Origin: Terriglobales bacterium | GTDB taxonomy: Bacteria; Acidobacteriota; Terriglobia; Terriglobales; Acidobacteriaceae | Assembly: GCA_025934025.1 (NCBI GenBank) | Contig: JAICYU010000011.1 | Span: forward strand, 1-36,577 | Direction: 5' to 3' | Length of the DNA stretch: 36,577 bases | In this document: piece after piece, positions 33,473-36,064 of the stretch | How the letters are laid out: each line of letters starts with the position of its first letter | Position numbering within the stretch: position 1 is the first letter of the stretch | The notes under the pieces: model-generated | The model's input: only the letters and a program-made list of their open reading frames with translations | What the model was told of the DNA's origin: nothing | Database searches by the model: none | Program-made: the position numbers and the translations under genes

Positions 33473-34636
33473 CTAGTGAACTGCCACCACGATCAAAGTC
33501 GCGTCATCAGTGAACACGCCTTTCGAGTGTTCGTTCGCACAGGAGAGGATCAGGTCCTTCAGCTCCGATGCGGGAAGATGCACGTTGCGGCTGACCAGTT
33601 CCACCAGCCGGTCTTCACCGAACTCCTGGCCTTCAGCGTCAGCGCATTCTGTAATGCCGTCTGTGAATAAGATAAGCCGGTCGCCGGAACGAAGCTCTGC
33701 CTGCTGCTGGTGATAACTCCATTCGCGCATCGTTCCCAGTACAACGTCATCGCTGCTCAACCGCAGCCATGATCCGTCGGCATGGGCCAGAACGGGCCAG
33801 TTGTGTCCGGCGTTGGTAAAACTGATGCGCTTCTCGCCTGAGTCCACCACGCAATAGAAGAACGTTATGAATTTTCCCGGAACGTTGTTCGCGGACACAG
33901 CCTTGTTCACGCGCTCGCAGAACGGCTTGGGCTCGATGACATCCGAGGCAAGCATCCGCACCGCCGCCTGGAGGTTCGACATGAGCAGGGCCGCGCCCAT
34001 CCCTTTGCCCACAACGTCTGCGACGCAGAGCGCCGAGCGATGTTCGCCGAGTTCAATCACATCGTAGTAGTCGCCGCCCACCGTGCGCGCCGATTGAGAA
34101 GAAGCAACCACGGTCACGCCATCCCGGGCGGCGATCTCATGCGGCATCAAAGCTCGCTGCACCTGCGCTGCTTCCTGTTGCTCAAATTGCTCGTTTAGTC
34201 TCTTCAGGCGCAGCTCCTGCGAGCGCTTCATCTGCTGCTCCAGAACGTTCAAGAGCTGCCGGTTGTCCCAGGGCTTTTGCACAAAATCGCAGGCGCCGCG
34301 ATGCATGGCGTCTACAGCAAGCTCAATGGAACCCCAAGCCGTCATCACAACCACAGCCATCGTGCTGTCCAGGGCCTGCACTGCGGAGATGAGTTCCAGG
34401 CCTTCTGCCCCCGACGTTGTGTCACGGCTGTAGTTCAGGTCGAGAAGAATCGCATCAAAGTTGTGGCTCTTGAGGGCATTTACGGCTGCGGCCGGGGAGT
34501 TTACGAACTCCGCTTCGTAGCCGTTGTTCTTCAACAGCAGAAGCAAAGCCGCAATCACGTCTTCCTGATCTTCTGCTACCAATACCCGAGGACGTCCGGA
34601 GAAGGCTTGGAGTTCGGTTGTCGCCGCGTGTGCCAT
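33473..34636 (-). CDS. Response regulator with PP2C (RsbU/SpoIIE-type) output
   Basis: A receiver domain (about 15-135: RPRVLVAEDQEDV, phosphoacceptor Asp in AILLDLNYSRD, VMTAWGS, QKPW) is joined through a coiled-coil linker (LEQQMKRSQELRLKRLNEQFEQQ) to a PP2C phosphatase with GGDYYDVIEL, VADVVGKGMGAALLMSN, LFTDGITE and TDDATLIVV. Such proteins turn a two-component signal into dephosphorylation of an anti-sigma antagonist. No histidine kinase is next to it. ATG 34636 places a purine-rich AGAGAG upstream; ATG 34663 and the longer 34741 form are possible. It is the second PP2C phosphatase in the window. Confidence 0.88.
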   Translation of the reverse strand: MAHAATTELQAFSGRPRVLVAEDQEDVIAALLLLLKNNGYEAEFVNSPAAAVNALKSHNFDAILLDLNYSRDTTSGAEGLELISAVQALDSTMAVVVMTAWGSIELAVDAMHRGACDFVQKPWDNRQLLNVLEQQMKRSQELRLKRLNEQFEQQEAAQVQRALMPHEIAARDGVTVVASSQSARTVGGDYYDVIELGEHRSALCVADVVGKGMGAALLMSNLQAAVRMLASDVIEPKPFCERVNKAVSANNVPGKFITFFYCVVDSGEKRISFTNAGHNWPVLAHADGSWLRLSSDDVVLGTMREWSYHQQQAELRSGDRLILFTDGITECADAEGQEFGEDRLVELVSRNVHLPASELKDLILSCANEHSKGVFTDDATLIVVAVH

Positions 34637-34892
34637 GCTGGGACTCTCTAGCTGAGAAATCATATCTCGAATACCTGCGGCGCTGTTGGCCTCAAGGTGG
34701 TTCCGGACAAAATAAATTGCAGTTTGTTGTCCGCTTGCCACCCAGCACTAAATCGCTGAAAACGCGGCAGATGCATATCGCTGAAAGTTGGACTGGGGTG
34801 GCGCGATGTCCGTTAGCGAAACCTTGCTGTTCGGAATTGAACAGAAGAGCGCCGGGGCGGATCGAGGAAAGATGGATGGATGAAAAGTTAAA

Positions 34893-35084
34893 AGGCTGTG
34901 ACGTTGGTTATGCTCTAGCCACCAACTCCTGCGAGGGAGCCGGCAGCGTGGACGCATGTACCGTCACAGCCTCTGATGTAATTACTGCTTTCGCAATCTC
35001 CAACCCCGGCCCGTTCCTCGCAGGACCTGCCGGTTTTTTCGGGTTGGAGCGGCCAACGAATCACTTCGTTGCGCCAATCACCCA
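34893..35084 (+). ncRNA. Structured RNA, first tandem copy (novel candidate)
   Basis: Helices seen directly. P1: AGGCTGTGACG (34893-34903) with CGTCACAGCCT (34962-34972), 11 bp perfect. P2: TATGC with GCATG inside P1, with one U-G pair. P3: CTCC (34926) TGCGAG GGAG hairpin. P4: CTCCAACCC (34998-35006) with GGGTTGGAG (35041-35049), 9 bp perfect. P5: CAACGAA with TTCGTTG (35054-35071), tetraloop. The P3 loop region CCTGCGAGG (34928-34936) is complementary to CCTCGCAGG (35016-35024) inside P4, a loop-loop contact. T6 at 35034-35039 lies inside P4, so it may not be the end. Wobble pairs favour the plus strand. The same set recurs 245 bp on with different sequence. No family is recognised; the Rfam Acido-1 and similar motifs should be compared. 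Confidence 0.75.
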
Positions 35085-35135
35085 GCCTACTTCGGAGCAG
35101 CTACAGTTTCCTGAGCTGTCCTTTCGGCCGTCGGC

Positions 35136-35336
35136 TGAAAATTGAGCATTGGTTATGCTCTGGCTGCCTGCTCCTGCGAGGGAGCCTGCAACTCGGATGC
35201 ATGTACCGCTGCAATTTTCGATGTGATCACCGCTTTCGCAGTTTCCGGTCCCAGCCTGCCCCTCGCAGAGCGTGCCGGTTTTTTCGGGCCGGAGTGTCCG
35301 GCAAATTGCTTTGCCTTCCCGATCACTCAGTTTTTT
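35136..35336 (+). ncRNA. Structured RNA, second tandem copy (novel candidate)
   Basis: Helices matching those of the first copy but with different sequence. P1: TGAAAATTGAGC (35136-35147) with GCTGCAATTTTCG (35208-35220), 12 bp including one U-G and one bulge. P2: TATGC/GCATG. P3: GCTCC (35170-35174) TGCGAG GGAGC. P4: TTCCGGTCCC (35243-35252) with GGGCCGGAG (35286-35294), one bulge. P5: GGCAAA with TTTGCC (35300-35315). The loop pair CTGCGAGGG (35174-35182) and CCCTCGCAG (35260-35268) is kept. A possible closing pair GTGATC/GATCAC precedes a T6 run at 35331-35336, a likely transcript end. A reading frame is open across both copies in the same register, but substitutions fall almost evenly over the codon positions, so coding is not favoured. 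Confidence 0.75.
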
Positions 35337-35647
35337 CGGACCAGATGCTGTTTAGTTCAACTGGCCTTTCAACTGCCGACGCACGCAATCCTAAATGAGA
35401 ATCGTGAACTGTCAAGACTCAGGAGTTGTGCAAACTCAGAAAAAGTTTTCCGGCGCGGGCCGCGTTAGAAACCGCTAATCATGCGGCTCCAGAGCACCCG
35501 ACGGTCCCGAGTACCGGATATGCACAGAACTTTCCACAGAAATGGAAAACGCGAAGCCGGATGTTCAACACCCATTGGCGGAAATGAATTGCTTGACTCG
35601 CCAACCCGATTTGCTTCATTGTGTTTCTTAAGGTGGCAGAAGGTGAC
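35337..35647. other. Intergenic region between the RNAs and the RNase H-like gene
   Basis: No gene is supported. It contains a short inverted repeat TTTCCA/TGGAAA (near 35530-35550) and a G+C-rich block. It may hold the promoter of the RNase H-like gene. AAGGTGAC just before 35648 is a ribosome site. Confidence 0.45.
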
Positions 35648-36064
35648 ATGTCCATCCTGAGAGCGTATGTTGACGGCGGCTCGCATGGAAGCCCGGGACC
35701 GTCGGGCATCGGCGTTGTTATCGAGAAGCCGGATGGTGAGCGGGTCAGTATCTCCAAATGGATTGGCCATCAGGACAACAACGTTGCAGAATATGTGGCG
35801 CTGCTGGAAGCACTCCAGCTTGCGGTGGCGCTCAAGGCTACAGCTCTCCACGTTTTTACCGATTCACAACTTGTCGTGAAGCAGATGACGGGCGAGTACC
35901 AGTGCCACAGCCCGCGTCTTTACTCCCTGAACTGGACCTGCCGCAAGATCGCCCGATCTCTCCGCTTCGCCATCGCTCACATTCCGCGCGAAAACAACCA
36001 GGAAGCAAATCATTTGGCGAATAAAGCCGTGAGAGCAGGCGCAAGACCCATCCTGGCCCGTTAA
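35648..36064 (+). CDS. RNase HI-like (RVT_3) protein with one altered catalytic residue
   Basis: A 138-residue protein of the RNase H fold, similar to RNase HI-family and plant-type RVT_3 proteins. Three of the four acidic residues are present: Asp9 (YVDGGSHG), Glu48 (AEYVALLEAL) and Asp72 (VFTDSQLVV). The fourth, normally Asp in an EADxLAN motif, is Asn121 (QEANHLANKA). HIPRENNQEAN is otherwise typical. AAGGTGAC before ATG 35648 supports this start over the upstream frame. It may cut RNA in RNA-DNA hybrids, but the altered site leaves activity open. It converges with the next gene, sharing two stop-codon bases. Confidence 0.85.
   Translation: MSILRAYVDGGSHGSPGPSGIGVVIEKPDGERVSISKWIGHQDNNVAEYVALLEALQLAVALKATALHVFTDSQLVVKQMTGEYQCHSPRLYSLNWTCRKIARSLRFAIAHIPRENNQEANHLANKAVRAGARPILAR

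Follow-up and report, generated by a model that had tools for sequence, protein, structure and literature searches.

Tandem copies of a structured minus-strand RNA beside a divergent RNase HI paralogue in Acidobacteriaceae: a candidate two-gene system

The Locus

The DNA analysed here (the window) is a stretch of 36,577 nucleotides from a Terriglobales bacterium of the family Acidobacteriaceae (assembly GCA_025934025.1, contig JAICYU010000011.1). It holds two repeats, at 34904-35085 and 35149-35330, which are 73% identical and spaced by exactly 245 nucleotides; GGTTATGCTCT is present twice, at 34906 and 35151. The repeats belong to two copies of an RNA read from the minus strand, and a gene for an RNase HI-like protein runs divergently from them on the plus strand. 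The features of the locus are as follows.

34882-35136, minus strand: RNA copy 1, second in the putative transcript (homology and structure; ends in a stem and T-run)
34882-34971, minus strand: terminator-like 3' hairpin domain of copy 1, with a TTTTAACTTTTC tail (sequence, fold, conservation in homologues)
34930-34935, minus strand: kissing-loop arm CUCGCA of copy 1, predicted from complementarity to UGCGAG at 35017-35022
35129-35136, minus strand: 5' octamer of copy 1, AGCCGACG
35137-35381, minus strand: RNA copy 2, first in the putative transcript (homology, covariation, sequence)
35175-35180, minus strand: kissing-loop arm CUCGCA of copy 2, predicted from complementarity to UGCGAG at 35262-35267
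35374-35381, minus strand: 5' octamer of copy 2, CGUCGGCA, matching the copy 1 octamer over 7 bases
35388-35393, minus strand: -10 box TAGGAT (TA...T in 141 of 144 copies)
35410-35415, minus strand: -35 box TTGACA (TTGAC in 127 of 144 copies)
35428-35433, minus strand: conserved upstream box TTGCAC(C), 5' of the -35 box (TTGCAC in 109 of 144 copies, from the alignment)
35648-36064, plus strand: RNase HI paralogue linked to the RNA and divergent from it (RVT_3/RNase_H; Pfam, homologues), with Asn in the fourth catalytic position

An earlier note, made from the letters of the window, had described two elements exactly 245 bp apart in which three helices had changed yet remained complementary. 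The coordinates and the identity of the repeats agree with the first statement and the window sequence with the second; the stem at 34894-34903/34962-34971 (copy 1), for instance, differs in its letters from that at 35137-35144/35212-35219 (copy 2), with pairing kept. Its interval of 34893-35336 and its length of about 200 nt were too short, as the unit is about 245 nt long, copy 2 starts near 35381 and the promoter extends to 35433. The 5' end of copy 2 was placed from the spacing to the -10 box and from the geometry of CRP sites in homologues. No tRNA or tmRNA was found in the window by ARAGORN. Beyond the 3' end of the RNA, a response regulator with a SpoIIE phosphatase domain is encoded on the minus strand at 33473-34741.

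Homologues and Distribution

A blastn search of 150 related genomes with copy 2 gave strong matches (E < 1e-8) only in the GTDB family of the window (f1). Using nhmmer on the fetched loci, 68 matches were obtained; 67 were near full-length and were used, and one partial match was dropped. A later set, assembled from pattern-found contigs and genome searches, comprised at least 243 matches, which were reduced to 150 unique copies by removing short and duplicate ones. A model of the 5' domain (R2) matched eight of the 396 genomes in a sample of the phylum, all of them in f1, and the RNA was found in none of the other sampled families. In the f1 sample, R2 matched 124 of 398 genomes, which are spread over 36 of the 79 genera and carry between one and five matches apiece; these counts are a lower bound, since only seven candidates per genome were scored. 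The search of acidobacterial genomes proposed by the earlier note has yielded homologues. When 29 genomes with no RNA on record, 18 from outside f1, were searched under laxer settings, a single match appeared (E 0.55), and it lay inside f1.

Among at least 117 named records, all except two are labelled as acidobacteria (Terriglobia, Terriglobales, Acidobacteriaceae, Sulfotelmatobacter and others). Two RNA-bearing contigs, L125 and L184, carry the labels Verrucomicrobia and Xanthobacteraceae, which are likely to be binning errors. A phage or plasmid origin was considered, and no match was obtained by blastn. On one IMG/VR contig (L209), the RNA is found alongside a resolvase, a DUF2924 gene and a ParB/methyltransferase gene.

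Strand and Secondary Structure

Comparative sequence analysis demonstrates that the RNA is encoded on the minus strand and not on the plus strand. Compared with shuffled sequences, the region 34880-35150 folds with a z-score of -6.1 on the minus strand and -4.2 on the plus strand, and RNAalifold on the 67 homologues gave -188.7 against -138.2. When pairs with at least two Watson-Crick types were read on the minus strand, 626 G-U and 92 C-A cells were counted in these homologues; the same variable pairs read on the plus strand gave 77 G-U and 273 C-A cells. On a tree of the 150 copies in the minus-strand reading, 454 changes led from Watson-Crick pairs to G-U and 111 to C-A. The earlier note had placed the RNA on the plus strand, which is refuted by this asymmetry and by the RNAalifold energies, as well as by the promoter, the 3' end and the GNRA loops, all of which are found on the minus strand. 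A plus-strand Northern blot would therefore probe the wrong strand.

The secondary structure comprises 84 consensus pairs in a unit of about 245 nt, as derived from the 150 unique homologues. At these pairs the tree holds 187 double changes from one Watson-Crick pair to another on a single branch, compared with 3-25 in eight slid controls and a mean of 11.5 (maximum 27) in 200 permutations of the partners. Pairing is kept in 94.1% and 96.8% of the cells of the two domains, against 28-49% in slid controls, and none of 500 shuffles reached the observed pairing values by any measure in either domain. A G-test resembling that of R-scape, run in two versions with a phylogenetic null, counts against this: it found 0 and 1 significant pairs. 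We think that its null is inflated by deep branches and that its power is low here. The proposal that homologues would covary was thus upheld by the double changes and not by the G-test, and the claim of a tandem structured RNA under selection is well supported by the pairing. The earlier interpretation as a whole was right about such an RNA, its acidobacterial lineage and the lack of an Rfam match; it missed the strand and the link to RNase HI. A protein-coding repeat was rejected as an explanation: the changes track base pairs, and the longest stop-free run reaches a median of 60 aa in the direction of the RNA and 77 aa in the opposite one.

Read 5' to 3' on the minus strand, the RNA opens with the octamer CGUCGACG and a small helix that encloses a hairpin, continues into a multi-branched domain and ends in a long terminal hairpin with a T-rich stretch after it. 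Within the multi-branched domain lie two hairpins, one of the GNRA type and one with a GAAA cap, as well as an internal loop that carries a conserved GAAAAAA run. On inspection, paired segments make up most of the RNA, and a long conserved single-stranded stretch that could serve as a seed is not visible. The complementary loops UGCGAG and CUCGCA are near-invariant in the 150 copies; a few copies are compensated (e.g., L069) and a few are broken (e.g., L064).

The family consensus octamer, CGUCGACG, is self-complementary, and with G-U pairs allowed this holds for 144 of the 150 copies, a pattern which a small local hairpin would also give. Positions 2 and 7 form G-C in 156, G-U in 8, A-U in 6 and A-C in 0 of 170 copies, which are not independent of one another, and this covariation is also explained by a local hairpin of 2-3 bp with a UCGA loop. 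Both octamers of the window have lost their self-complementarity, and they match each other over seven bases. Calculated duplex energies were -20.5 for consensus with consensus, -18.0 for copy 1 with consensus, -16.5 for copy 1 with copy 2, -15.3 for copy 1 with itself, -12.7 for copy 2 with consensus and -12.5 for copy 2 with itself. As a sign of pairing between the copies these energies are suggestive only; for the octamer of copy 1, the family consensus is no worse a partner than copy 2.

Promoters and the 3' End

A sigma70-type promoter is found at the 5' end of the RNA, and a stem with a T-run at its 3' end. The promoter counts given in the feature list refer to 144 copies with at least 60 nt upstream; five unplaceable copies and one with a short flank were left out. 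The only promoter-like site found in the window is that of copy 2 (35415-35388), and none was found for copy 1. Copy 2 ends in an A-T rich stem (35137-35144/35212-35219), after which there is no T-run. Since copy 1 follows directly without a promoter of its own, and a T-run is present only after copy 1, both copies are probably carried by one transcript that ends after copy 1. A simple terminator scan returned a single site, on the plus strand at 35288-35302, which equals the chance rate of one per shuffle. The terminator-like hairpin of copy 1 is absent from that scan because its loop is longer than the scan allows.

A second class of promoter was also identified. The CRP-type site TGTGA-N6-TCACA, with at most one mismatch, occurs in 12 of 149 copies and is centred at -40.5 to -42.5 from the octamer; this position (about -41.5) corresponds to the class II CRP geometry. 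It is present in 12 of the 17 copies that lack TTGAC and in none of the 132 that have it, the rate expected by chance from base shuffles being 0.17% per copy. None of these 12 copies, some of which are close relatives of one another, adjoins the RNase gene. A set of 20 further copies, obtained from 39 matches by leaving out 18 already in the set and one without a recognisable octamer, gave the same picture: the site was found in 3/3 copies without TTGAC and in 0/17 with it. Regulators of the Crp type were found in four of four tested genomes and also in 14 of 14 control genomes of the same search. A search for the promoter-box pattern in 61 genomes yielded 35 matches, of which 15 could be assigned to RNA loci from their positions. 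At one locus (L039:3262-5169), two inverted RNA copies lie about 1.35 kb apart, the promoter of one being of the CRP type and that of the other of the TTGAC type.

The RNase HI Paralogue

The protein encoded in the window matches PF13456 (E 7.1e-25) and PF00075 (E 6e-13), and solved structures of RNases H match as well. With residues numbered in the ORF from 35621, D18, E57 and D81 are kept in all of the 90 distinct sequences from RNA-bearing loci, as are C95 and C107. The fourth catalytic acid is replaced by Asn in 86 of these sequences and by His in one, and is Asp in three; the full DEDD set is thus not the rule. In 12 of 12 housekeeping RNases HI, the residues at the positions of the fourth acid, C95 and C107 are D, V and A. 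An Asn mutant of E. coli RNase HI at Asp134 reportedly retains activity. In that enzyme the fourth acid, Asp134, together with His124 helps to activate the attacking water (PMC13310575).

Two types of RNase HI are found in these genomes by whole-genome searches: a housekeeping type, about 39-48% identical to the window protein, and the RNA-linked paralogue. Of 20 RNA-bearing genomes, 19 have the housekeeping type, the exception being G082; in G011 the match contains a stop codon. The paralogue was found in 16 of the 20, including the window's own genome, with 67-80% identity outside the latter and down to 63% across the family. In G012 and G019, an RNase HI type of 52-54% identity lies beside the RNA, and G380 and G418 have CRP-type RNA with only the housekeeping RNase HI. 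All of 12 genomes without the RNA likewise have only the housekeeping type (E 1e-20), here with an identity of 40-47%. In none of 12 loci was the RNA found beside the housekeeping gene.

Linkage of the RNA and the Paralogue

Of the 142 RNA copies with sufficient flanking sequence, 95 have an RNase HI gene in divergent orientation no more than 1.5 kb away, and 47 are without one; the other 8 of the 150 copies had too little flank to be counted. In 84 of the 95 adjacent cases the gene is 160-300 nt from the RNA start. For copies away from the RNase gene no common neighbour was found, as no Pfam family occurs in more than 2 of 73 neighbouring proteins.

Co-occurrence was scored in the 398 f1 genomes, with the paralogue called at a protein E value of 1e-33. 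Both were found in 115 genomes, RNA only in nine, the paralogue only in three and neither in 271 (Fisher p 9e-85, not corrected for phylogeny). Most of the sampled genomes are draft assemblies, with contamination of up to 9%, which can mimic duplication. The three paralogue-only genomes are cases at contig ends: in two of them the first ~85 nt of the RNA are visible, and in the third the contig begins 62 bases before the gene match. Four of the nine RNA-only genomes (G380, G418, G573 and G673) carry CRP-type RNA genes, and two others (G608 and G775) have no RNase HI gene at the RNA locus.

Pairing was followed gene by gene in 36 genomes, re-searched with laxer filters, and for six further paralogue genes picked because no RNA was listed near them. 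In the 36 genomes, 39 of 41 paralogue genes adjoin the RNA, one of the 39 (in G670) being counted by a partial RNA match of 28 bits, and the remaining two are truncated where their contigs end. Two or three paralogue genes are present in seven of these genomes, and in five of the seven (G556, G581, G597, G607 and G722) every one is paired, so that RNA and paralogue have been duplicated together. Beside the six picked genes, the full RNA was found in G554, G690 and G714 and an RNA with an internal gap in G700. Only a 3' remnant of the RNA lies beside the gene of G710, and the gene of G011 has no RNA within 1.1 kb, the RNA being 4 kb away on the same contig. The RNA of G710 (L341), reduced to its 3' domain, and that of G700 (L342), in which an internal stretch is missing, are apparently decaying copies.

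Between the RNA and the RNase HI gene, 60 of 88 loci hold 9-mers that resemble the DnaA box with one mismatch or none, where 3.6 were expected from shuffles. Mostly these are TTTTCCACA rather than TTATCCACA, and the exact box occurs in 8 of 88 loci. The intergenic region of the window contains no such 9-mer with at most one mismatch.

Proposed Function and Alternatives

Taken together, the sequence data are best explained, and in our judgement probably so, by a minus-strand transcript carrying two copies of a new structured noncoding RNA of about 245 nt, which with the divergent RNase HI paralogue would make up a two-gene system that is inherited as such. We regard the RNA and the modified RNase HI as partners because they are inherited and duplicated together far above chance, and because a paralogue gene that lacks an RNA next to it is rare among those examined. 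The RNA is more than an accessory of the paralogue, since it also occurs without it.

As the working partner of the RNase HI-like protein, the RNA would bind it and direct or restrain its action on RNA-containing duplexes. The amount of RNA relative to the protein may be shifted by additional RNA genes that a CRP-family regulator controls, and two RNA molecules, or both tandem copies, may pair through the 5' octamer. The physical partnership of RNA and protein, the dimerisation and the target are what we infer from these patterns. In its fullest form, which we put forward tentatively and hold to be less probable than its opposite, the proposal is that the dimerising RNA is a dedicated cofactor guiding or gating the modified (DEDN) RNase HI, that the CRP-controlled extra RNA genes tune it to the nutrient state, and that this constitutes a new RNA-protein system of soil acidobacteria. 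RNase HI is generally viewed as a lone enzyme that clears RNA-DNA hybrids. If the proposal is true, an RNase HI short of one catalytic acid and passed on along with the gene of a structured RNA would represent a new way of controlling or redirecting such an enzyme. The pair would also offer a functional handle on an RNA of wide occurrence in one family, and since it is small, it could readily be tested in E. coli.

The alternative that survives best, although it is rather unlikely, is that the RNA acts in trans as a regulatory small RNA, by pairing with mRNAs or through a general RNA-binding protein, the paralogue being its neighbour by shared regulation or hitch-hiking. A promoter and a 3' end of its own, multiple gene copies within a genome, the CRP-type control of some copies, the diverse contexts away from the RNase gene and the nine genomes that have the RNA without the paralogue are all consistent with such a role. 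However, it leaves the co-occurrence and the paired duplication with the paralogue unaccounted for, and the largely paired RNA without a visible seed would argue against it as well.

Another possibility is an addiction pair, in which the RNase HI-like protein is harmful and is neutralised by the RNA, orphan RNA copies serving as extra antidote. The patchy distribution, the paired duplication and the fact that the paralogue is rarely without neighbouring RNA, whereas the RNA occurs without the paralogue, would all fit. The divergent rather than operonic order, the RNase HI fold and the lack of a PADLOC match do not, and to our knowledge RNase HI has not been described as a toxin. The odds are lowered further by the paralogue gene of G011, which has no adjacent RNA, and that of G710, which lies beside a mere remnant; we consider this explanation improbable. 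Slightly less credence still is given to a primer function resembling that of ColE1, in which an RNA-DNA hybrid would be processed by the RNase HI paralogue. An RNase H neighbour and the excess of DnaA-box-like 9-mers would suit such a role; against it stand the absence of matching phage or plasmid records, the prevalence of TTTTCCACA over the exact TTATCCACA and the window, which is without a box. A structured RNA of the plus strand, or a leader of the RNase HI mRNA, can practically be dismissed, for although that strand folds too, has the RNase HI gene downstream and bears the only site of the terminator scan, the G-U/C-A asymmetry, the alifold energies and the conserved promoter, T-rich 3' end and GNRA loops all point to the minus strand. 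A cis-regulatory leader of that gene was rejected on the same ground, the RNA being divergent and on the opposite strand.

Comparison with Known Systems

All Rfam models (Rfam 15), which the earlier note had asked to be searched, were run on the window and gave no match at the gathering cut-off, and only chance-level ones at E values of up to 10. The relation to Acido-1 or other Rfam motifs that it had thought possible was not found. Three homologous loci gave two weak Rfam matches, neither of them over the RNA.

OLE, GOLLD and ROOL are likewise independent structured RNAs and contain a self-complementary segment that switches palindromes by paired changes. Such switching is taken there as evidence for homo-oligomers of OLE and GOLLD (PMC12286853). 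Unlike these RNAs, the present one is far shorter (~245 nt) and is linked to an RNase HI paralogue, and its oligomerisation is only putative. Homology to them was rejected, as no match was obtained in the Rfam scans.

Type III toxin-antitoxin systems comprise short RNA repeats within the toxin operon. They resemble the present locus in that a structured RNA gene lies next to a gene with a nuclease fold, and differ from it in that the genes here are divergent, the fold is that of RNase HI and the RNA is single and large. Such a system was rejected, since the locus is not one operon, Pfam shows only RVT_3/RNase_H and no ToxN/AbiQ fold, and there is no match in PADLOC; the latter applies equally to a link with defence systems. 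Retrons, OMEGA systems (IscB/TnpB) and CRISPR also combine a noncoding RNA with a dedicated protein, in part of RNase H-like fold. The neighbour of the window copy is, in contrast, a small RNase HI and not a reverse transcriptase, a RuvC-type nuclease or a Cas protein. A retron was rejected because the adjacent gene matches RVT_3 and RNase_H only, with no reverse transcriptase.

With the housekeeping bacterial RNase HI of the RVT_3 group, the paralogue shares the family match and three of the four catalytic acids; it is set apart by the Asn in place of the fourth, by two invariant cysteines and by its occurrence with the RNA. Soil-1 and Solibacter-1 are also RNA candidates from soil or acidobacteria, and have no Rfam entry in the table of PMC2864571, from which this likeness is drawn. 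Rfam, PADLOC and the open-access literature searched yielded no description of the present RNA, nor one of an RNase HI that has an RNA dedicated to it. Taken by itself, the RNA would be one more structured RNA; what would be new is its pairing with an RNase HI paralogue, to which we know of no counterpart.
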